64,000 nt of DNA from Gonapodya prolifera JEL478 (lineage: Eukaryota; Monoblepharomycota; Monoblepharidomycetes; Monoblepharidales; Gonapodyaceae). The stretch lies in NCBI GenBank assembly GCA_001574975.1, contig KQ965826.1:1-64000 (forward strand). The letters are read 5' to 3'. The notes beneath the pieces were generated by a model. That model was given only the letters and a program-made list of their open reading frames with translations. It did not search any database and was not told the origin of the DNA. The translations under genes and the position numbers were made by a program. Numbering within the stretch: position 1 is the stretch's first letter; each line of letters opens with the position of its first letter. Positions 33,411 to 53,203 of the stretch are shown here, piece by piece.

Positions 33411-35565
33411 TCATGTCTCCCGCCTTGAAACTTTCAGCTTGTCTTTGGGTTGGTGATGTGTTCCAGTGTAACCAGTCCATTGAGTGAAATGAGTAAGTCG
33501 AGCATGAAGATTCTCAAGAACTGGCACCAACACCAATGGGTTGCAGCTCAAAAAACAATCTTTCCTGAGCATCTTTGCAGGCAACTTCATGACCTTGATC
33601 TCCCCAGAGAGCATGGACAAGATAAACTTTAGCAAGTGATTGCATGCTTTGGTGTCTGGCTGGATTTGTTGCAAGACCTTCAAAATTTGTTGCTTCTCAT
33701 TGTTGTTTTGAGCATGCGGCTCAAAGTTGTAGCCAGTGCTCATGGTTACGTAGTCTTCAGGTCTGGCAGCACAAAAATAGTCATTCTCACCAGCCACCCA
33801 AGCGTTCAGATTGAGGATGCCATTATTGAATCCAAGAAGGTTCCAATTTAAGTCTCAAAGTCAAATGAATTCAGCTTCACAACAACAAAAGTGGAGTGTT
33901 GTCCGCCCCAGCACAGATCTCTGCTTTGAAGCATCCCCAATATCCTTTCAAACTGCTTGAATTCTCTTTGCTTTGTGGAGTTGTTCTTCTCATTGTAATG
34001 CACATATGCACAGTTGAGATGCTTTCTAAAGTCACTTCCACCAAGCATTTGACTGGTGGCTTCTGCATGGGTCAATGATATCCATTGCCTGTTCTGAAAA
34101 AGCATCCAGCTCCCAGAAGAATCTGATCCTTTCAAGTAGACAATGTTGGAGCTTGTATACTATGCATGGACAAAGCCAGCTATATCCTTGCCACCTCTGT
34201 CCAGTGCTCACAGAAATGCTTTATCAAGCAGTTCATTGTCAAAAAACTGAACACCATCATTGAGGAACTCCAATGGCCCAAAATCATTGTTGTTCACATT
34301 ATTGTTGATGGTTATGTTTGTCACAGTCAATTGCTGAATCACAACAAAGAACTTATTGAGATTTGCAGAATTCTCCAGGCTCACTGGCATGGCACCCATA
34401 GGAGGGGATCGATAACTGCACAACAGATGGTTGCACTGAATAGCTAGGCCATCATTGTTTGTAATTGCTACCAGTCGACTGTGTCCACAAACAAAGCATG
34501 TTGCACTCCCATAGTACAAGTTGAGAGCACCTTCAAATGTGTGGCCATCAGGCTTGTGCACCAGGGTCATACTGTCATTCCCTGAATGAACATCATTCAC
34601 CAAGGTCACAGCCTCCTGGCACACTTCATCAATCACTTCAGGCGACACAACCTGCTTTGGAAACACCTCTTCTAAAGCCTTCAGCCTTCAGAAGTTCAGG
34701 AGGCACCTTTCACAAACCCCATTTTTGGTCTTTGCAGGCTATTCCTCCGTTGTGACAACGGCGGGATATGATTCCATCGGCTGTCACATAAAGATATTGA
34801 TTATCCGATTTGTGCAGAGCTCTTTTGAAAAGACATGTCAGTTCAGAAGTAGAAATTGCATAACCATCGCCAAACCACTTGGTGGTTCCAATGGATGCAG
34901 GGACAAAGGCAAAGTGTTCAGTGATAAACTCTTTGAGAGTCTGGAGTTTGGACAGTATAAGCTCCCTCAATGACCACGTCTGGCCCTCCCCTACTACTAC
35001 GATGAGGGGCAGCTCTGCTGTTGCGAAGTGCTTCAGCAAGCCACTCTGGCATCTCAGCAAGCTCGCATTCCCAGGGGGATTTCTCCTCCAGCCAACTATA
35101 CCTCCTTCGCTCCGTTTCACCAGGAACGAGAAAAGAGGTAGGAGGGGCAATAATCATCCCTCCAGTCGACCTAACGTCCGCACACCCACCCAAGAGTGCA
35201 CTGGTTGATTTGATGTCAGCCAACGACTCATACCAACGAAAGTATAAGTGAAGACCTCCTCGCTGTGAACGAGTAGTTACCGTCTCAGGTCCGTTTTCGT
35301 CCTTCCTGTTTTGGACAAGGAACTCCGCCCACTTTTCGATATTGTCGATGTCGAGCACGATGATTCCAGAGAGCTGGCCAGTCTGGATGGCAATCCCTCG
35401 CAGTGGGTGTAGAGCGAGATCCTTTGCGGTCTCCATCGTGAGCTTCTGCCAGTTTGGCGGTGGCAAAAGATCCTTTTTGTTCCGGTCAACGTTCCAGCTT
35501 ACAGAGATAGGGAAGGCGACCCATCCGAGTCCCCAGTATGCATTGAGTTGCGATTGGGTTGACAT
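33411..35565 (-). mobile_element. Fossil viral primase-helicase (AEP plus D5/SF3 type)
   Basis: Remains of a replication protein of large DNA viruses and their relatives. The right part (34918-35565) is an archaeo-eukaryotic primase (PrimPol) domain: IIVLDIDN holds the D-x-D metal site and GLHLYFR the conserved His, followed by GGMIIAPPTS. The left part (33411-34666) resembles the D5_N / superfamily-3 helicase region, with a TGYNFEP-like block before the helicase. The element is broken, with roughly four or more breaks. The left part is almost free of CG while the right part is not, so the left is old or long methylated. Family: nucleocytoplasmic large DNA virus or Polinton-like D5 type; I cannot decide which. 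Confidence 0.7.
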
Positions 35566-36081
35566 TCTGGGGTAGTGTGTGGGATTGGGCTTTATAAATC
35601 CAGTTGTGTTTGATAAGGAATCTGAGGATCGGCAGATCTGGATCGAAAAAACGCATCGGAACGAGTCGATCAGACCTCACGAAGATTTGAGTATTTGAGT
35701 ATCAGAATCTCCTCTGTGGCCAAGTTCCCCCGCCTGTTCGAACCTTAAACCGCCCACTCTTTTATTTTTTCTACACCTTGAAAAGATGGAAGTCCACTTA
35801 TGCTGAGGACTGGTGACTGATTGAGTGTCGGGAGTTGATTTCGGGATGGGATCATTGACCCAGCCGTTGTTACTTCTCTACTACTATTCAAAAATGGAGA
35901 CTCTCAGTGAGAGTTATTTAACATCTTGCGTCCTACAACTCAAAATTACGTCTCATATGTTTCACAATATTGCAATCTAGAAATCGCGGCAGCAAAATTT
36001 TTGTGAAATACACATTGACTAAACATTCATAACCAGCTTTCGTGTCAACTGGTCACTCGGTCTAACGGTTTGAAGGAACTG
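35566..36081. other. AT-rich spacer
   Basis: An AT-rich stretch without a gene between the start side of the fossil primase and the 3' end of the F-box gene. Confidence 0.5.
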
Positions 36082-43676: not shown

Positions 43677-45287
43677 CTACCGCGATACGCTGTTCCGCGG
43701 CGCCGCCGGGTCGGGAACCTTGCGTCGTTTCTGACTCGCGAACCGCATAAAATCCGGTGGCTCTCCACCCCCACCACCACCACGAGACAGCACGCCGTTC
43801 TCGCCTCCCGACAAGTCCGGCGACTGTAATCCTTCCCCCTTTTCCCCCTCACCCTCAACGCCAGCCGGGGAGGTCGAGGTCGAAGTCGACACCCACGGCG
43901 GGTAATTATGCTGCGACTGCGGCGGGGACCACGACCCCGAAACCATATCAAACCCGGAACTGGACAACCTGAACAGCGGCGAGATCCGCGGTGCCGTAGC
44001 CCTTAGGGCGGTGATGGTGGTGACCGTGAGTGTGGGAGCGGAGGTGGACGTCGGCAGGGTTGTCGTCATGCCAGCTGGGATGAGTTTCTCGCCCGAGTCG
44101 GCCGAGTTCAGGGAGTTCAACGAGCCCCTGGAGCTCGCCGGCCCGACCCCAGATGCAGGTGAAAGGGTGCGGCTGCCGTCGGAGGGAGTGGCCCATTGGG
44201 GTGAGAGTGAGGATGCGGCGGCAAGGGCTGGCGTATCGTGGTTCGTGGTTGTGTTGGAATGAAAGGTGGAAGATGAAAGGTGAATACGAAGTTTAGAATC
44301 GGCCACGCACGGATGGCGAGGACAGACGAGGAAGGTGTGATGAAACTCACATGAGGGGGGGCGGTTCCTTACGACTTGGATCATCCACGGCTTTTTCGGT
44401 GTCTCAACCGCACTCGCACTCCCCGTGCCTCCTCTGCGTCGTCTCCACACAACAACGCCCACCATCGCCGCCACAATCACAACACACGCCACTACGATCC
44501 CTACAATGGCGACCACGGGGACTGACCCCGCGGAGGAGGTAGTGGAGTCCTGCAGGAGCATCGAGGACGCGTCTGATGGCGTAGGACCCGAGCCAGAACC
44601 CGAACCGGTCGGGGAAGGTTGCCGGGTGGGCAGGGCGCCCGTTTGGTAGTGCACCAGACTGGCCGTTGATGTTGTCGCGAGTGTGGAAGGGGTGAGTGGT
44701 GTAGAGAGGGTGAGTGGTGTCTGCGTCGGGGTGGCGCCGGCGGGGGCGGAGGGTTGGGATGTTGGCCGGGTTAATGGGGAAGGGGTAGGGGAAGCCACAG
44801 TTGAGGCTGGGCTGTTCGACGATGATGCAGGTGGCGGAACGGCGACCATTTCGGGCGGAGGTGCGGAGGGGGTTGTCGAGGGTGACGACGATGGGACTGA
44901 CGGTGGCGACGGGGGAGGTGGTGGAGGAGAGGGTGGAACAGCAACAACTGCCGGTGGAGGTGGAGGAGGAGGGGATACTCCGCACGAGTTTCCAACCGTG
45001 AGAGCACCGTTCGCACACCCATATTGCGAACAGCTGTAACAATCGCCCCCGCACGCTAATAATGGCGCCGGGCAGCTTATCGGTGGCGGGGGAGCTCCCA
45101 CGCACGAGTTCCCTTGCGTGAGTGCACCGTTTGAGCATCCGTATTGGGTGCAGCTGTAGCAAGCGGCGCCGCAGGAGAGGAGGGGGGTGGGGCAGGAGGA
45201 GGATTGGGCGGATGAGGGCGTGGCGAGGAGGAGCAGGAGGAGAGGGAGGAAGAGGAGGAGCCATCGTGTCTGGAAACTGGGCAACAT
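43677..45287 (-). CDS. Secreted-type single-pass membrane protein, paralog 1
   Basis: Exons 45287-44351 and 44227-43677 give 495 residues. The signal peptide is a Leu run (LLLFLPLLLLLLATPSSAQ). Two Cys repeats follow: CPTPLLSCGAACYSCTQYGC and CPAPLLACGGDCYSCSQYGC. Then come a Pro/Ser/Thr stalk, a transmembrane helix (VAIVGIVVACVVIVAAMVGV) and WRRRRGG. The tail is rich in Ser and Gly and ends FASQKRRKVPDPAAPRN, matching its paralog. The intron of 123 bases is a multiple of three and open in frame, so an unspliced, longer form is possible. The intron is at the same place (shortly after the transmembrane helix) and in the same phase in both copies, showing recent duplication. Confidence 0.8.
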   Translation of the reverse strand: MLPSFQTRWLLLFLPLLLLLLATPSSAQSSSCPTPLLSCGAACYSCTQYGCSNGALTQGNSCVGAPPPPISCPAPLLACGGDCYSCSQYGCANGALTVGNSCGVSPPPPPPPAVVAVPPSPPPPPPSPPSVPSSSPSTTPSAPPPEMVAVPPPASSSNSPASTVASPTPSPLTRPTSQPSAPAGATPTQTPLTLSTPLTPSTLATTSTASLVHYQTGALPTRQPSPTGSGSGSGPTPSDASSMLLQDSTTSSAGSVPVVAIVGIVVACVVIVAAMVGVVVWRRRRGGTGSASAVETPKKPWMIQVVRNRPPSCEFHHTFLVCPRHPCVADSKLRIHLSSSTFHSNTTTNHDTPALAAASSLSPQWATPSDGSRTLSPASGVGPASSRGSLNSLNSADSGEKLIPAGMTTTLPTSTSAPTLTVTTITALRATAPRISPLFRLSSSGFDMVSGSWSPPQSQHNYPPWVSTSTSTSPAGVEGEGEKGEGLQSPDLSGGENGVLSRGGGGGGEPPDFMRFASQKRRKVPDPAAPRNSVSR

Positions 45288-45499
45288 CGCAAACTTGAGC
45301 GGGAGTAGACGATCGCTTGATTTCCTTGAGTTCCACGAAGCGGGTGGGTATTACAGTGTATGCGTTCCTTGGCTTCCGCCAGGAGGATTGTTTACATTTA
45401 GGCTTTCCAGCGTCCTGCGTGCGGCGTGTGGGGCTGAGCCGCATAAACACTGCCGGTTGAATAATGACGGTGACCACCATGAAATGATAATGAATAATT

Positions 45500-46850
45500 A
45501 TCGTGACGGGGCCGCAGTTGGTGGAGAGTGTTGATATCCCAAACAATCGCTTTCGGTTTGTGATCCCGTGGATTGCCGGCGGGAGCGCCACAAGCGCAGG
45601 CAGATTGGCTGTACAAATCGGAACACCATTCAAGTTCAAGCTCGATTTCGAAGGATCAAAGGGGATTGCAGATGTGCTTGGTTTCGCCAAGCAAAAAAGC
45701 TCTTCCGTGATTCCAAACCCCACCAACAATGGGAATCAACTGACCACACACGTTGAAGATATATCTTTGATTACCGTGAGCAGTAGAGGAACAACTCTTG
45801 CTATCACGACCGCGCTCCCCCACCGCGTGCGTGTGGGGCATCTTGTTTCGCTGAGCGGGATGGACACTTTGCCATCTCTCGAAACAAGCAACCCGTCTCG
45901 AGTATTCCGCGTTAATTTGTGCACTGATACTACTCTTACTGTTTCTTGCGTATGTAGTGGAGTGTCTTACAATCCGGAGGAACCAAAACTCCATACAGGA
46001 AGAGTGACAATGAGCTACCCATCGCACCCTTTCAACACTGCCACGAGTATTCAAGAAGTGCTTTCCGCAATCAGCAGCACGACGGCTCTACCGCATAATC
46101 TGCAAGCCGGGTCCACTGTACGCCTCTCAATGAGTAATAGTGTTCCAGCAGTTGATGGCATGTTTACAGTTTTGGCGGTTGGCTCAACAACCCAGTCTAC
46201 TATTGCCTTTCCAAGCGGCGTGACGGGAGTTACAAAAGATGGGTCCTTTGCCGCTATTGGTACCGGCAAAGTGTATCTATACAATGTAAAAGGTGCCTCT
46301 GCAAACGGGATACAAGTGTCCTCTCTTGTTGGCAGGAAGACACTTTACTTGAACGGAATCGACGATGCCGACACATTCGAGGTATATGCAGAAAACGCGC
46401 TTGCTCAGACTGCTGGCGAGACGGGCGGCAGCGTATTGTCCATATCAAGTGACTATGATGGGTTTCGGAAAGATCAGACAAACAAGAGGAGCGACTATCT
46501 GGGCATTGGATACGCGCCCATGCAACTAGCCGGTCTAACTCGATATTCATAACGATTGATGAGCTGGGAGAGGATGTTCAAACGAGCGCCGTCCCAAACG
46601 TGTTTAGCCGGATTGCATTGAATGGACTGGTTGGTACAGTTTTATACAATTGTTTTACTCCAAGCTCTTGCGTGTTTGCGGAAGCGCCTCTTTCCAAGAT
46701 GACTTCGTTGACTGTAAAGCTCGTGCGTCCAGACGGAATTCTGTCTGACAACTTGAATGTGGATTGGAGCTTTTTGATAGAGATAACTGAAGTGATTGAT
46801 TCAAATGAAGGATTTAGCATAAATAGCCAACGTATTAGGGGTTGAGGGAA
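45500..46850 (+). mobile_element. Fossil capsid-type structural protein gene of a large DNA virus
   Basis: The sequence is all-beta in character, with FKLDFEGSKGIADVLGF and YLGIGYAPMQLAGL, and a final domain with ITIDELGEDVQTS, a VFSRIALNG block, LVRPDGILS and WSFLIEITEV. This order (DELG, KI/RI-L-G, PL...L-VK...PDG, SF-LEI-EV) is what I know from minor-capsid or penton-like structural proteins of giant DNA viruses; the family name is my recollection, not a search result. It looks close to whole but broken, with about one or two breaks. It is the left gene of the compact block 45.5-50.46 kb. Confidence 0.6.
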
Positions 46851-46881
46851 GAATGATTTTTGTTGTTGGTTGTTGGTACCA

Positions 46882-46896
46882 GTATCGACCGAGAGG
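46882..46896 (+). promoter_or_regulatory. Shared 15-mer, copy 1
   Basis: GTATCGACCGAGAGG, 40 bases upstream of the ATG at 46936 and just after the structural gene. An identical copy is at 50223-50237, again upstream of a short gene. A promoter element of the virus-like block is the simplest reading. Confidence 0.5.
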
Positions 46897-46935
46897 TGTG
46901 TAAGCCCGACGTCTCACACAAAATTCATCCAATAC

Positions 46936-47423
46936 ATGGCTTCCTGCGCCCAAGCTTTCCTTTCCCATGTCGAGTCTTTCCGAAAATATATTCAGCTTTC
47001 AAGCGGGAGCTCCGCTGACGACGAACACAGCAACACTGGCCCCGAACAGCAGCGACAGAAGAATCATCCACACCGCCGCATGGCAAAGGGCAAAAGGAAG
47101 CAGATACCCTCAAAACACCAACATGGCGACAAACCTACAGTATCCATTAAAATAATCGCACCTGAAGAAGCCGCACAAATGTTCGAGGTGCCCGAGAAAC
47201 CACTCTACCGGTATGTCGCAAATTGCAAGGCGCCCCCCCACAACTTGCCAACACTCTTTGCAGAAGCCTACCTATCAAGGTTTTTCTGGACAATAATCTC
47301 GAGGATCGGTGCCTAACATTGTATCAATTTCAGATGCTTAATTTAGTAGGCACAAATAGCTCGTTATTCATGAGTCTCCAAACCACCAACTACAGCAGCA
47401 ACTACTTCGCTCGGTCCAAATGA
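46936..47423 (+). CDS. Small spliced protein of unknown function in the virus-like block
   Basis: Exons 46936-47210 and 47264-47423 give 144 residues; the intron is 53 bases (GTATGT..TTGCAG) and the phase closes. The N-terminal half is polar and basic (MAKGKRKQIPSKHQHGDKP). The C-terminal half looks folded (VSIKIIAPEEAAQMFEVPEK, then IKVFLDNNLEDRCLTLYQFQ across exon 2). No family is known to me. Its last 60 bases overlap the 3' end of the ankyrin-SH3 gene on the other strand. The 15-mer 40 bases upstream links it to the virus-like block, while the intron is host-like. Confidence 0.5.
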
Positions 47424-48798
47424 AGGCTCCAGCAGGCGTTCCGAGTGGTTCGATAATAGTCCAAGCAGAGACGGAGCAGCCGGCGCAGAGGTTTGCGGAG
47501 ATGCGGAGTCTGTGGTGCCATTTGAAGCCGAGGAGTATGGCGGAGGTTCTCGGCTATCCGATGTGACAGGTTGAGGAAGCGATTCTGTACGCGTTGGTAT
47601 TGGAACCACGGTGGTTTGTGTCGCAGCAAACGAGGCCATCGAGTCACTGCTGCGGAGATAGGACAGGGGGAAGCAGCCAACGGCTTGGGTGGTGGTGTGG
47701 AATCCCTCAAAATTTTAGAGCGGCAGTGGTGAGACGAGGAGGATGAGGACGGGGCCAAATTGAAGTGACGAATCCACTCACAGAACACCACCCATCCGTG
47801 TATGCCAAATTCACAAACACTCCATCTCCACGAGCGAACCCGATCTCGTCGTCTCGCTGCGGTACATAGTCTGCATTAGCAAACATCATCTGGTGTACGC
47901 TAGTTGGTGGAGCGGAAAGAGATGGGTTTTGTGGGGGACTGGGCAATTGCGAGCGAAGAGCTGCGTTCTCGGCGATAAGAGTCGCATTTTGGGATCGTAG
48001 AGCTGAGATTTCGTGCCGTAGGATCGTATTTTGGTTGAGAAGGGACGCATTTTCTTGGCGTAGGGTGACGACGAGGTTGTTTGTCGGTGGCGGAGAAGCA
48101 GATCGTGAAGGTGGTTCCGGAGTGTCATGTGGCCGAGGAATCGTGGTTTGCAGATGGGCCTTGAGAATGGACAGAAAGTCCGGGTCGGGGTTCTGTCTGG
48201 CAGCATCCAATTCCTCTTTCGTCACTGGTGCGCCAAACGCCAACAGAAGCCTCACAATGTCCACCCGAGGCTGCACTTTGAACCACACGCGGGCTTCCTC
48301 CCCTGTCGTTGGATGACTCAGTGTAACCATGCTGCCCTTTAAGTTGATGTCCAGCCGCCCATCGCTCGCGGGACATGTCTCCCCGCTACCATTCCACCAC
48401 TTCACCATCCCTCCCCTTCCAATGGCAAGACAAAGAATACTGGGGAACGTGTATGTCCTATGACACCGCTTCCGCTCCCACTCATCGCTCGTCCAAGTAC
48501 GGTCCCACCAGTTGCTGATTCTCCACTCCAGCGGTCCTCGCACACGGGTGCCCTTCTCGAGGAGTGTCTTCACCACGGATGATTGGGCGTGGAGCACGGC
48601 AAGGCACAGCGCAGTCTCCCCGTCGAACACGTCCCGTTTCCATTCGTTCGAGAACAGGCCATTAGTGACCCGGGCTTTGAGTGTGATCCGTTTCCGTGCA
48701 TCGGGACTAGCACCATTATCGATCAGCCGCTCCACGTCGAAATGGCGGCCTGCCTCTACCGCTTCAATCAGACTTGAGTCCAGGTTTGCCACAGTCAT
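47364..48798 (-). CDS. Ankyrin-coiled-coil-SH3 protein
   Basis: Exons 48798-47782 and 47705-47364 give 452 residues. The intron (76 bases) interrupts the SH3 domain: exon 1 ends in FANADYVPQRDDEIGFARGD and AYTDGW, exon 2 continues with VGCFPLSYL, restoring the ALYDY...ELxF..G D..W..G..G.FP..Y pattern. The N-terminus has ankyrin-like units (DNGASPDARKRI, GETALCLAVLHAQSSVVKTL, then VDIVRLLLAFGAPV). A short heptad region (LVVTLRQENASLLNQNTILR) forms a likely coiled coil. The role is that of a scaffold binding Pro-rich partners. The start codon is only 13 bases from the start of the divergent GH18 gene, a spacing more typical of a compact viral genome than of the host. Confidence 0.82.
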
Positions 48799-48811
48799 TA
48801 AAGAATCGACG

Positions 48812-50134
48812 ATGGATCAAGCTCACTCAGGGAGGCACCCTAAACGGCTGAGGCGGAAGTCATGGGTTTGTAAACATATGTGCTTTAAGAATCTGTTTTT
48901 TTGTGACACTTGTAAGATTGAAATGGATCCAACTCGACCCAAAAGCACTTGTTGTCAATGTGAAAACTGCACGTGCGAGTGTAGAGTGTTTCACTTAACA
49001 ACATCCAAACCCACAGACACACCGCCACCTGTAAAGAGTGATCAGATAGTCCCGGCTACTCCAGCTTATTGCGTTGGCTCGATTCTAAAGCCAGTAAACG
49101 ACAATGTAGATGGATGGGTCCGGTTTTCGCAATCTCTCTCTGTAGGTATGTACGATCTTGGCAATACGCGATTACGCACTCTGGCCGAGACCAAGGCATG
49201 GGTTGCGAAAACTTTTCAATCGCGAGCAGTCGCGTTTGTGCTGCAGCGCTCGGGAGGGGCCTTTTCGATTTACGCGAAATCTGCCGTCTCTCTTGTGGAC
49301 ACGGATCCAACGAACAAAAATATCCCCGGCGAGACCACGTACGTCAAAAAGTCGTTTATTGACACTCTACAGCCTCCGCAGCCAGTTCCCCAACCCAACA
49401 ATCCCCCGCCCACTCGATCCAAATGCCTCGTTGGCACATACTTGCCGAATTGGGTGAGTTACGGTCTTGAGACAATTACTGCAGATATAAGTATTGTGTT
49501 TCTTGCCTTTATTGACTGGTACGCGAATGGGTATGATGTCAACAATCTCCGAAATGACGTGAATGCGTTAAAGGCGCGCCTGCCAAACATCAAGGTCGTT
49601 GTCTCGGTAGGAGGCGGCGGCGCGGGCAACTGGAGCAACTCGTACTCTCTCGACGCTCTCAAGACCTTTGTTCAAAACTTGGATTGGGAGCCCGATGGTG
49701 CCTGGAGCTCAAATCCGGGAATCGCCGACACCTATGTGCGGATTGCACGCGACTTTTGCTCTATTCTACCATCTCCAAAACTCTTGACGACAGCTGTGTG
49801 GATGAATGGGACGGAAACAGGAAACGCGACAACGGCGCTCCAATCAGGAGTTTTTGATTATGTAAATATCATGTCATATGAGACCGACAAAACAGATGGG
49901 TGGGATGATTTCGCAAGATGTGTTCAGTCGTTTGCCCAATTCGTTGATGTGCGCAAACTTGCGATCTTATTGGAAAGCCCGCCAGAGGGGTATGGACGAC
50001 ATGTCACATCGATTGGTGAGGCTACTTTTGCTGGCGGAACGGCGAATCAACTGGGGATTGGAATGGTCTTTACATGGTACTTTATGAAATCTGATGGGTT
50101 TCCTACAGAAAAGCAGTACGCGACGGGCTGGTAA
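48812..50134 (+). CDS. GH18 chitinase-like protein in the virus-like block
   Basis: One open frame of 440 codons from ATG 48812. The N-terminus is Cys-rich (CKHMCFKNLFFCDTCKIEMD, then CCQCENCTCEC), followed by an unassigned domain of about 110 residues and a Pro-rich linker (PPQPVPQPNNPPPTR). From about residue 210 it resembles glycoside hydrolase family 18: the YLPNWVSYG opening strand, IVFLAFIDWY, VVVSVGGGG, LDWEP with the acid Glu, and a late YVNIMSYET strand. GH18 enzymes hydrolyse chitin. Large DNA viruses and insect viruses carry such genes, and the fungal host has a chitin wall, so a role in entry or release is conceivable but inferred. It is AT-richer than neighbouring host genes. It looks whole. 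Confidence 0.72.
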   Translation: MDQAHSGRHPKRLRRKSWVCKHMCFKNLFFCDTCKIEMDPTRPKSTCCQCENCTCECRVFHLTTSKPTDTPPPVKSDQIVPATPAYCVGSILKPVNDNVDGWVRFSQSLSVGMYDLGNTRLRTLAETKAWVAKTFQSRAVAFVLQRSGGAFSIYAKSAVSLVDTDPTNKNIPGETTYVKKSFIDTLQPPQPVPQPNNPPPTRSKCLVGTYLPNWVSYGLETITADISIVFLAFIDWYANGYDVNNLRNDVNALKARLPNIKVVVSVGGGGAGNWSNSYSLDALKTFVQNLDWEPDGAWSSNPGIADTYVRIARDFCSILPSPKLLTTAVWMNGTETGNATTALQSGVFDYVNIMSYETDKTDGWDDFARCVQSFAQFVDVRKLAILLESPPEGYGRHVTSIGEATFAGGTANQLGIGMVFTWYFMKSDGFPTEKQYATGW

Positions 50135-50222
50135 AGCTTTGATGTGATGTCAAATGAATGCGTTGTCGATAGGACTGGATGTGTGATGTTGATTCTGTGA
50201 TACTGAATGTATCGACATGGAG

Positions 50223-50237
50223 CGGTATCGACCGAGA
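50223..50237 (+). promoter_or_regulatory. Shared 15-mer, copy 2
   Basis: GTATCGACCGAGAGG, identical to 46882-46896; 68 bases upstream of the ATG at 50305. Confidence 0.5.
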
Positions 50238-50304
50238 GGGATTGGCAGGATGGACTTTTGGACCAATCCTTCCCATCCATCCCCTCATTCACATCTTGAA
50301 GTTA

Positions 50305-50462
50305 TGGATTATACCAAAGACCAGATTTCCTCTCTGGACGCCTCGCTTCAAAGCCGGGGATTCGACACCGACAGTCTACCAGCCGGCCTCCTCGACTCGT
50401 TGCGCAGGATTGCTTCACTCCGTCGCGCACAGCAAATGGCTCTTGGCGTTGCTCAAGAGGTT
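50305..50462 (+). other. Start of a small gene cut at the edge of the virus-like block
   Basis: The frame from ATG 50305 begins MDYTKDQISSLDASLQSRGF and is helical in character for about 52 codons. At about 50461 it runs into DNA that is the reverse complement of the GH28 coding region. This is the apparent right border of the virus-like block. The family is unknown. Confidence 0.45.
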
Positions 50463-51184
50463 TCCACTGCCAAGCAGTCGTCCTGGTTGTTGACGATGGA
50501 GTTCTGGATGATGATGTTGGTGGCAGAGACGTCTTCTTGCAAAGCAGCGATAAATTGAGTTCGGGCAAAAAAACAACAACCCCACTCCACACGTTAACTC
50601 ACCAAAAGCATCCGTGTTGTGGCCTTTGCTCGTCCCCGCCGAGTTATCCATGGTGAAATGGTCAAAAGTGGTGTCGGACCCTCCAATGCTGAAGACGTGA
50701 ACCGGTGCGTTGAGGATCTTGATCCCCTTCACAAGCGAATTCCCCGTAAGCGTCGACCTGAGCATCTTGGGCTTGGGGACCCCGCCGTTCCCGCCCATGC
50801 CGTCCCAGTACGACGCGCCGTTGCCGTCAAACGGGTGATACCAGAGCCGCCGATTGCGAACAGGGAGTTGGTCTTGTCGAGCGTGCTCGGAGCCCACGTG
50901 ATGGTACCTTTGACGGTGACTTTCGTGCCCGTATTGAGTTTGGACATGTCGATGACCTGGTTCTTGGGCACGGTGAAGGGTCCTTGGATGATGCTGCTGC
51001 TCGACGTAAGACAGTTCGAGACGGTGTCTAACGAGTTGATGACGCATTGCTGGAAAGAACAATCACCCAAACACATCTATGAAGGAGCCGTGGGTACGGT
51101 CGGGTTCCTAAAACTGTGAAAACTCACTGCGTAAGCTTGGGAGCTGGCCAACGCCGACGTCAACAACAGGAGGATGGCGCGCAT
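50463..51184 (-). pseudogene. GH28 polygalacturonase, truncated by the virus-like block
   Basis: Exons 51184-51128, 51049-50603 and 50535 to about 50463. A signal peptide (MRAILLLLTSALASSQAYA) is followed by CVINSLDTVSNC and VPKNQVIDMSKLNTGT. Then come GNGASYWDGMGGNGG, KGIKILNAPVHVFSI, DNSAGTSKGHNTDAF and NNQDDCLAV. NTD and DD are two of the four GH28 active-site motifs; G-H-G and R-I-K would follow but are absent. After DDCLAV the sequence switches to that of the block at 50135-50460. A frame change with loss of about ten codons also lies near 50840, between SGIT and the DGNG motif. The intact enzyme would be secreted and cut pectin. This copy is dead unless the assembly joined unrelated DNA. 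Confidence 0.8.
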
Positions 51185-51636
51185 GCTTGAGAATGTTTCC
51201 GATGAGGGAGGTGAGATGACAAACCCCTGTTTTATACCATTTCACCCTGCTGGATCAGTGGTCAAGCCCTCCACCTTGAACAACAAAAAAAACGTGCACT
51301 ACGTACACCGCATCACAAAGGTAAGGTCCTTATTTACCTGTAACAATCCTGCGGGGAACAGTTCATTCTGAGTTCGACGCTCAGAGTTGGGACGAATAAT
51401 TTGATGCGTCCGGTCGTCAACATTCCCCCTCCCCCCTTCTCACCCTTTCTTGTCTGTAACGCGAGGCTGAGTACCGATTACAGCAAGTGCAGATTTCGTT
51501 TGCAAACTCGCCGCTCATGGCAGGTACAAAAAAAAAATTTTTCGGTGACATGAGCATTTTCGCGCCCACCAACTTTCAGCTTCGCACCTCCGCTCACAAT
51601 CCCCTTCGCTACCGCTCACTACAGGCACGCAATAAA
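51185..51636. other. Intergenic region
   Basis: Upstream region of the GH28 gene and 3' region of the oxygenase; no gene. A GC-poor run of A and T lies near 51530. Confidence 0.5.
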
Positions 51637-53203
51637 TTACTTTTTCTGATCCACATCATACACCGCCTTCAACTTCCTATCCGTCCACTCCCCCGCCGTC
51701 ACGATCTCCTCCTCGGTCCGTTCAGGGAACCCTTTTTCCTCCAACCAGCGCTTCACGACGGGGCTTGGAAGCCCTACGAGCCGCGTGTCGTGCTCGGGCC
51801 GCATGAAGTAGGCCATGACGTAGCGGGTCTGAGCTTGGTGCGCAGGCGTGTCGGAGACTACCCGGTGAAGGGTTGAGGCGAAGTAGCCTTCCGTCCTGCG
51901 TGTGGGAGGGAAAGGGGGGCAGTGAGAAGGGGGAGGGCGTTTGGGGGTTGGGGGAGGTGCAAGCGACGTACCAGAACTGCAAACAGTCCGAGATATTAAT
52001 CAGCACCGCCGGTACGCCGTTCTCGTCCGGTCTGGGCTCGATGTCCACCCATTGCCCGCCCCAGTTGAGTTGCAATCCAGGTTCGCCGTGTTGGATCAGC
52101 ATCGTGAGTGAGCCAAAGTCACTGTAATTGGAGCAAGAGGGGGAGGACCTTGGGATTCTTGAAATAGATGGGTGTGTGAATANGCAACACGCACCTGTGC
52201 GCTGCGGTCCGTACGACGCCGTCGGGACCGCGCTTGACAGAGTCCGGAACGGGTGGGTATTTGATCCAGCGGAATGAGTCTCGGGACGGTACGTCACTGG
52301 ATTCAACAGGTTTGCGATANNNNNNNNNNNNNNNNNNNNNNNNNNNNNNNNNNNNNNNNNNNNCTTCGACACTCACTACCGGTGGCGCTCGACGAACCAT
52401 TCCTCGTCTTCGATTTGAAGGGCGAGAGCGAATGCGCGGAGTAGGTCGAGTCCCAGTTCGTACATTTTCTTTGTAAAGGCTTGAACTTGAGCCTGGCGCT
52501 CGACAATGTAGTCGGGCTGCAGTGACATGAGGTGAATCGAACGAAACGGTTAGTACATTAGATGTGCGCCAGGAGGCACGAATATAAACAATTGCAAACG
52601 GAAGTCTTCTACTCACCCAGACCCTCGTCTTATCAAACTCCCCCTTTCCCCACTTTCCCGGAACGTTCAAAAAGTCGTACCCGAAATGAGACCTCTCGCC
52701 GTTGAAGCTCGCTGGCAGCTTGTCGCCCCGTCGGGCCATGAACGCCGCTTCGACGCGAGGATCGGCGGGGCGAGTGTAGTCCTCGGGTTTCCCGTTCTCG
52801 ATGGAAGAAGAGGTGTCGCGGTATCCAGCACTTGCAAAGAAATGGATTGGTTGAGCACTCCAAGCTCGCAACAAAATTTGAATTGACGCTCACTAGTCAG
52901 ATCCGAATGCCCATCGCGGGTCACGGCGCACCTCGTCGGGCACGTCTGCGAAAAAGCCCTTGCCGATGCCAAACAGGTCGTCGATGTCCGCTTTGGGGAG
53001 TCCGTGGTTCACGAGGTACAGGAATCCTGTTCGACGGGAAGTTCGAATATTAAAATGACTCTAATACGGTGGTGAGGACGGAAACGAGTACGCACCATGA
53101 GTTGTGACGGCCTTGTGAATCGCGTCTACTACAAGAGCTCGCGATGCTGGAGTGGTGTCAGGACCTCGAAACCCGGATAAGTCGATGGTGGGGAGTTCAA
53201 GCT
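51637..53203 (-). CDS. 2-oxoglutarate/Fe(II) oxygenase, isopenicillin N synthase type
   Basis: A multi-exon gene. The last three exons are firm: ..-52195, 52121-51972 and 51895-51637. Family features in order: LELPTIDLSGFRGPD at the start, LYLVNHGLP, IGKGFFADVPDE, YRDTSSSIENGKPEDYTRP and RWIKYPPVP. Then AAHSDFGSLTMLIQ with the H-x-D iron ligands, a STLHRVV block with the second His, and QTRYVMAYF with the Arg that binds 2-oxoglutarate. Such enzymes hydroxylate or cyclise small molecules in the cytosol; the substrate is unknown. A 44-base N gap (52320-52363) hides part of one exon, and one N lies in the next intron. The 5' end is uncertain: no in-frame ATG precedes the first clear exon, which begins about 53203, so a further exon may exist. 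Confidence 0.75.
52320..52363. other. Assembly gap (N)
   Basis: 44 N inside the oxygenase gene; a single N is also present at 52183. Confidence 0.99.

Follow-up and report, generated by a model that had tools for sequence, protein, structure and literature searches.

How did a compact gene block of about 5 kb come to lie among host genes of an early-diverging, chytrid-type fungus, and does it derive from a virus? The question is raised by the first 64 kb (64,000 nucleotides) of contig KQ965826.1 (C96 below, 184.7 kb) of Gonapodya prolifera JEL478, a stretch that we call the window and in which a preliminary description had proposed a virus-derived segment. We examined the block on both strands and searched it piece by piece against the organism's own assembly (47.6 Mb, 207 contigs). 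It is probably a small, decaying endogenous giant-virus element (Nucleocytoviricota, on the chlorovirus-like side) that holds a host-type ankyrin-SH3 gene, with the 3′ part of a host GH28 gene lost and capture probably having occurred during break repair. The proposed viral source is supported by two observations: the GH18 gene of the block is related to a gene on a giant-virus contig, and the segment is absent from a collinear copy of the region on contig C17. The gene content, given earlier as a capsid-type gene, a small gene, an ankyrin-SH3 gene, a GH18 gene and a second, cut small gene, is borne out by the open frames and by Pfam matches to Ank, SH3_9 and GH18.

Limits of the block and a collinear segment without it

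We searched the genome with the nucleotide sequence of window 45300-50600 and obtained matches at ten places, the two strongest non-self ones being collinear and both on C17. Window 45310-45501 corresponds to C17:435153-434954 (85% identity) and window 50465-50600 to C17:430724-430588 (94%). We aligned both flanks to a 7 kb piece of C17. The left flank, in which a minus-strand carbohydrate-binding gene starts, aligns up to the junction, and the right flank aligns from 50465 to 51244 at 88%, with 99 further bases to 51345 at 84%. The limits of the block can be fixed because the alignment stops at 45501 and resumes at 50465; they fall within 2 bases of the 45500..50462 first proposed. Between the flanks lie 4,229 bases on C17 versus 4,963 in the window. 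The C17 interval contains the 3′ part of a GH28 gene and an ankyrin-repeat frame, and blastn at E≤1e-3 found no match between it and the window block.

At the left junction the C17 match ends in ...AATAATTAT and at the right it restarts with CACTGCC.... A terminal repeat is not visible at either junction, and microhomology amounts to a base or two at most. The genes at both ends of the block are truncated by the junctions, among them the right-hand small gene, whose cut had already been recognized. On the host side, the window GH28 gene starts at 51184 and its GH28 sequence stops at 50465, exactly at the right junction, while the C17 counterpart is longer, matching the profile in pieces from position 8 to 314. 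The window gene has thus lost its 3′ part at the site of the block; the alignment to C17 also shows a 19-base deletion that shifts its reading frame. In the whole genome we counted 33 GH28 matches, which group into 13 places, and PMC4494064 gives a copy number of 14 for Gonapodya. A further 58 bases (window 51637-51694) are 84% like C17:431484-431427, just beyond the end of the C17 GH28 gene. Since this match lies on the far side of the window GH28 gene, the block is not the sole difference between the paralogous segments.

The presence of a viral contig (C176) in the same assembly might suggest that the block is an assembly chimera of host and viral contigs. This is extremely improbable, as both host flanks are collinear with C17, the GH28 remnant and the capsid-type gene are decayed, and the GH18 gene is only 43-47% like its C176 relative. 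The DNA search also found no near copy of the block elsewhere in the assembly.

Table 1. Coordinates of the block, its flanks and the features within it (window positions)
Feature	Position	Strand	Remarks
Left host flank	43900..45501		Collinear with C17 (77%); 43900 is the edge of the C17 piece fetched
Inserted block	45502..50464		4,963 bases; C17 host alignment ends at 45501, restarts at 50465
Capsid-type gene, 5′ piece	45502..46549	+	Start absent at left junction; open frame
Capsid-type gene, 3′ piece	46525..46845	+	Other frame (frameshift)
15-mer, copy 1	46882..46896	+	Exact repeat
Small gene 1	46936..47316	+	Read without splicing; end would move to 47423 with the proposed 53-base intron 47211-47263
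Ankyrin-SH3 gene, host type	47364..48798	-	Intron 47706-47781; Pfam, genome family, gene model
GH18 gene	48812..50134	+	440 open codons; Pfam E=1.2e-7; relative on C176
Module of ~85 residues	49109..49366	+	Precedes the GH18 domain; two copies each on C176 (preceding GH18) and C203 (preceding GH16)
15-mer, copy 2	50225..50239	+	Exact repeat
Small gene 2	50304..50464	+	Truncated by right junction
Host GH28 remnant	50465..51184	-	5′ part only; Pfam E=7.9e-15; aligned to C17

The GH18 gene and its relative on a giant-virus contig

The GH18 domain scores 32.2 bits against a curated Pfam cut-off of 29.6. Searching the genome with the gene gave 8 matches, itself included, of which the closest is C176:17857-18918 (47% identity; by tblastn, 43% across 354 residues). 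This relative is separated by about 4 kb from the gene for a major capsid protein (MCP). Contig C176 has 34,303 bases, a guanine-cytosine (GC) content of 39-43% and 25 listed, densely packed open frames. We scanned 18 of these, one of them cut at a piece edge, against Pfam at E≤0.01; 11 gave a match, eight at or above the curated cut-off. The MCP matches Capsid_N (E=7.9e-51) and Capsid_NCLDV (E=3.6e-46), and its nearest PDB entry is PBCV-1 MCPv1 (E=4.3e-89); it has no relative in IMG/VR. Also above cut-off are DUF5767, a ResIII helicase, OTU, Lipase_3, PRTase-CE, a ChaN-type domain and the GH18 relative itself, while three frames have sub-cut-off matches only, namely Prim-Pol, a second GH18 with CBM_2, and a long frame with weak matches. 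Because its nearest relative in the genome sits among these giant-virus hallmark genes, the GH18 gene of the block is, to judge by its sequence, virus-related. GH18-type wall enzymes are also found in giant viruses as the chlorovirus chitinases named in PMC5294986, to which we liken the gene by description rather than by alignment.

Neither the window GH18 protein alone nor its alignment with the C176 relative found a relative in the protein collection at E≤0.001, and the aligned pair found none in IMG/VR. The GH18 protein alone gave one IMG/VR locus (L004; E=1e-5, candidate stretches only), which belongs to a 3,154-residue protein that does not look GH18-like, and we dismissed it as a chance match.

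A complete GH18 catalytic strand reads DxxDxDxE. Compared with the C176 protein, the window protein has seven residues fewer just before the LDWE motif, so that its catalytic strand is incomplete (FVQ-NLDWE). With these residues missing, the product appears to be GH18-derived but its enzyme activity is doubtful. We found one frame break in the GH28 remnant and none in the GH18 gene, too few events to judge selection on the latter.

Apart from the catalytic domain, the protein carries a module of about 85 residues that accounts for further matches of the GH18 query on C176 and on C203, the copies there being 38-46% identical to that of the window. On C203 a 462-codon frame has two copies of the module followed by a GH16 domain (E=4.3e-8). 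The same contig encodes an EsV-1-7 cysteine-motif protein (E=9.4e-82) and a dual-specificity phosphatase. One could imagine that giant viruses of an uncultured, fungus-infecting lineage use the module for wall targeting, and that the window GH18 frame is still open over 440 codons, next to a decayed capsid gene, because it was retained by the fungus for a function of its own; we consider this combination unlikely.

Structural candidate, host-type gene and composition of the block

The capsid-type frame is open from 45494 to 46549, and a second frame carries the reading on as far as 46842. The first eight bases from 45494 are host DNA, the foreign part starting at the junction; there is no ATG near the start, the first occurring about 120 codons in. 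The 5′ piece contains two internal repeats with 20 of 72 residues identical, and no second copy of the gene was found in the genome. For the 3′ piece, the sole PDB match at E≤10 among 177,635 sequences is the PBCV-1 protein P1v1 (E=0.19 and 0.12). P1v1 is described as the penton variant of the unique vertex of PBCV-1; its single jelly roll has an insertion that makes up two additional beta domains, and a bridging helix lies at the C-terminus, at 491-524 (PMC9617893). The match covers P1v1 432-474, between the insertion and the bridging helix. In P1v1 (8h2i) the matched stretch thus follows the large insertion, and in the window gene the two repeated stretches lie in an insertion-like part. The window gene, for which the fold is putative, differs in being broken, and the match taken alone is not significant. 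From this marginal match and the layout we regard the gene as likely a penton gene. It is the sole structural candidate of the block, in which no Pfam match to a hallmark gene (MCP, VLTF3, packaging ATPase, polymerase or primase) was obtained.

The ankyrin-SH3 gene, by contrast, has a host composition, as set out below. It matches Ank (E=4.7e-7) and SH3_9 (E=1.9e-4, under that family's cut-off), and at least 125 matches to it are listed in the genome, 112 of 452 candidates having been scored. The best other copy among the matches listed is 53% identical (C15), and none of those listed lies on C176 or C203. The gene thus belongs by sequence to a large host family, which is clustered on C44, C32, C15, C17 and other contigs. 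Removal of the 76-base intron 47706-47781 restores a complete SH3 end, and several of 18 paralog-type loci compared (L052, L053, L055, L056, L057, L067) match both sides of it. The preliminary description had assigned spliceosomal introns to this gene and to small gene 1. The first assignment is supported by the SH3 end and the paralogs; the second has no such support, and a sub-cut-off helix-turn-helix match in the unspliced frame of small gene 1 (E=0.078) spans the proposed donor site. It had further left open whether host genes are intermixed or the virus lineage tolerates introns, and the large host family and host composition of the ankyrin-SH3 gene fit the former better. Ankyrin-SH3 and GH18 genes in the same order without viral genes, the finding named beforehand as counting against a virus-derived segment, were not seen in the organism's own genome.

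The compactness of the block had been an argument for its viral nature. The sequence does show opposite-strand start codons 13 bases apart, that of the ankyrin-SH3 gene at 48796-48798 (minus) and that of the GH18 gene at 48812 (plus). The 60-base tail-to-tail overlap (47364-47423) exists only if small gene 1 is spliced; unspliced, this gene ends at 47316. The block was also said to have its own repeated 15-mer. Two exact copies are indeed present, and no further copy occurs in the genome at up to one mismatch; but a direct repeat of this kind is near the chance level and is weak evidence: 11 of 1000 Markov simulations of the block produced one, and 4 of 24 overlapping 5-kb stretches taken from the window itself contain one (3 distinct repeats). 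Shorter parts of the 15-mer were not found on C176, C203 or 10 kb of C52, and a role as viral promoter is not supported beyond chance. Likewise, the block is AT-richer than its flanks as described (GC 0.508 versus 0.576 and 0.526), but as a whole it is not unusual, ranking 19th in AT content among 119 stretches. We give little weight to the 15-mer, the 60-base overlap and whole-block GC. Gene by gene, GC is 0.486 for the penton-type gene, 0.491 for GH18 and 0.555 for ankyrin-SH3. For 3-mer use we compared each gene with 285 window stretches, the viral remnant at 33-36 kb among them. A lean to C176 at least as strong occurs in 29 stretches for the penton-type gene, in 33 for GH18 and in 239 for ankyrin-SH3; the first two genes lean towards C176, and the third is host-like.

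These data bear on whether the whole block of 4,963 bases could be one piece of a virus genome that had earlier captured the ankyrin-SH3 gene with its intron, the host adding nothing. The tight packing with start codons 13 bases apart, the 15-mer flanking the ankyrin-SH3 gene on both sides and the cut genes at both junctions would agree with this. We nevertheless find it rather unlikely, given the host composition of the ankyrin-SH3 gene, its intron at a place where host paralogs also show a gap, the lack of a match on C176 or C203 among the at least 125 listed, and the near-chance level of the 15-mer.

Several points weigh against the reading as a giant-virus element. The P1v1 match is marginal, its best stretch alone reaching E=0.73, and the 5′ piece of the capsid-type gene matches a hydroxyacid oxidase in PDB at a comparable E=0.11. 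We took the oxidase to be a chance match although its E-value equals that of P1v1, and it indicates the level that chance can reach for matches of this sort. Neither piece has a relative in the protein collection, Pfam (to E=10), PHROGs or IMG/VR; the 5′ piece in addition has none in a 5.8-billion-protein collection, nor among phages by tblastn. The AlphaFold models of the two pieces are poor (mean predicted local distance difference test, pLDDT, of 31 and 38), small genes 1 and 2 have no relative in the own genome, and by composition the penton-type and GH18 genes rank no higher than the top ~10-12% among the stretches of the window. The large contigs C36 (35%) and C86 (32% and 30%) also carry weaker GH18 relatives, which may not be viral. 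One might accordingly suppose that the block is host DNA, with a host chitinase that a virus later acquired and a capsid-type frame that is something else. The C36 and C86 genes, the capsid-type frame without a firm relative and a block GC inside the range of the window would all be compatible with this. We hold it to be very unlikely, since the closest GH18 gene and the shared module are found on C176 among giant-virus genes, the collinear C17 segment lacks the block and the genes at both its ends are cut at the junctions.

Proposed capture, decay and other giant-virus remnants

We have combined the data in a model in which giant-virus DNA, comprising at least the penton-type capsid gene and the GH18 wall-enzyme gene, would have become joined between the carbohydrate-binding gene and the GH28 gene, the 3′ part of the latter being lost at the insertion site. 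Linear fragments were likely captured in the repair of a double-strand break and not through a dedicated integrase, to judge by the truncated end genes and the lack of visible terminal repeats. The intron-bearing ankyrin-SH3 gene of the host family may have been joined in the same event or later, and the captured giant-virus DNA would then have decayed. In its present state the element has genes of giant-virus type with host sequence on both sides, a capsid-type gene that is truncated and frameshifted, and a GH18 gene lacking seven residues. For a mirusvirus origin we have no positive evidence; no mirusvirus profile was used, and the capsid genes found in the genome are of Nucleocytoviricota type.

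The block is accompanied by other remnants. About 10 kb to its left, window 33411-35676 (minus strand) holds a broken primase of giant-virus type, whose Prim-Pol (E=1.8e-20) and D5_N (E=1.2e-4) parts are read in different frames. On C41, some 9 kb from a VLTF3 match, a 993-codon frame contains a stretch to which the Prim-Pol piece is 73% identical; the identity of this piece to the Prim-Pol of C176 is only 21%. By these comparisons the window contains a second viral remnant, whose source was probably a virus other than that of C176. Elsewhere in the genome, MCP genes occur at two places, C176 and C52, the nearest PDB entries for the latter being 8rbs (E=3.9e-52) and then PBCV-1 MCPv1 (E=5.6e-46). 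VLTF3 gave seven matches at six places (C41, C195, C117, C6, C15, C51). Giant-virus insertions thus look repeated in this genome. C52, with its MCP, is a host-sized contig.

Giant-virus genes have already been published for Gonapodya prolifera, Allomyces and Rhizophagus (PMC5294986, PMC10640383). The giant-virus region reported on G. prolifera KQ965906.1 includes an MCP gene and two chitinase-type genes (PMC5294986), a description that C176 fits and from which we infer that the two are the same contig. The window block is distinct from it, being a remnant of 5 kb that sits on a host contig and combines penton-type, GH18 and host-type genes. In Rhizophagus irregularis, sequence of a large DNA virus has likewise been endogenized in a fungus, as a continuous region of 1.5 Mb (PMC10640383) in contrast to the 5-kb remnant here. 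According to the abstract of that 2023 paper, no double-stranded DNA viruses are known to infect fungi, although putative giant viruses of fungi were described from single virions in the same year (PMC9894930). Our literature searches, few of which were aimed at the locus and which mostly left out subscription papers, did not find the block described.

Giant-virus insertions in early fungi are therefore already known, and the value of this example lies in an exactly bounded block that can be set beside a paralogous segment without it. With the junctions placed to the base and a paralogous host segment without the block, the mode of capture becomes testable. The locus further suggests that the virus makes its way through the fungal wall in part by wall-degrading enzymes with a shared module.

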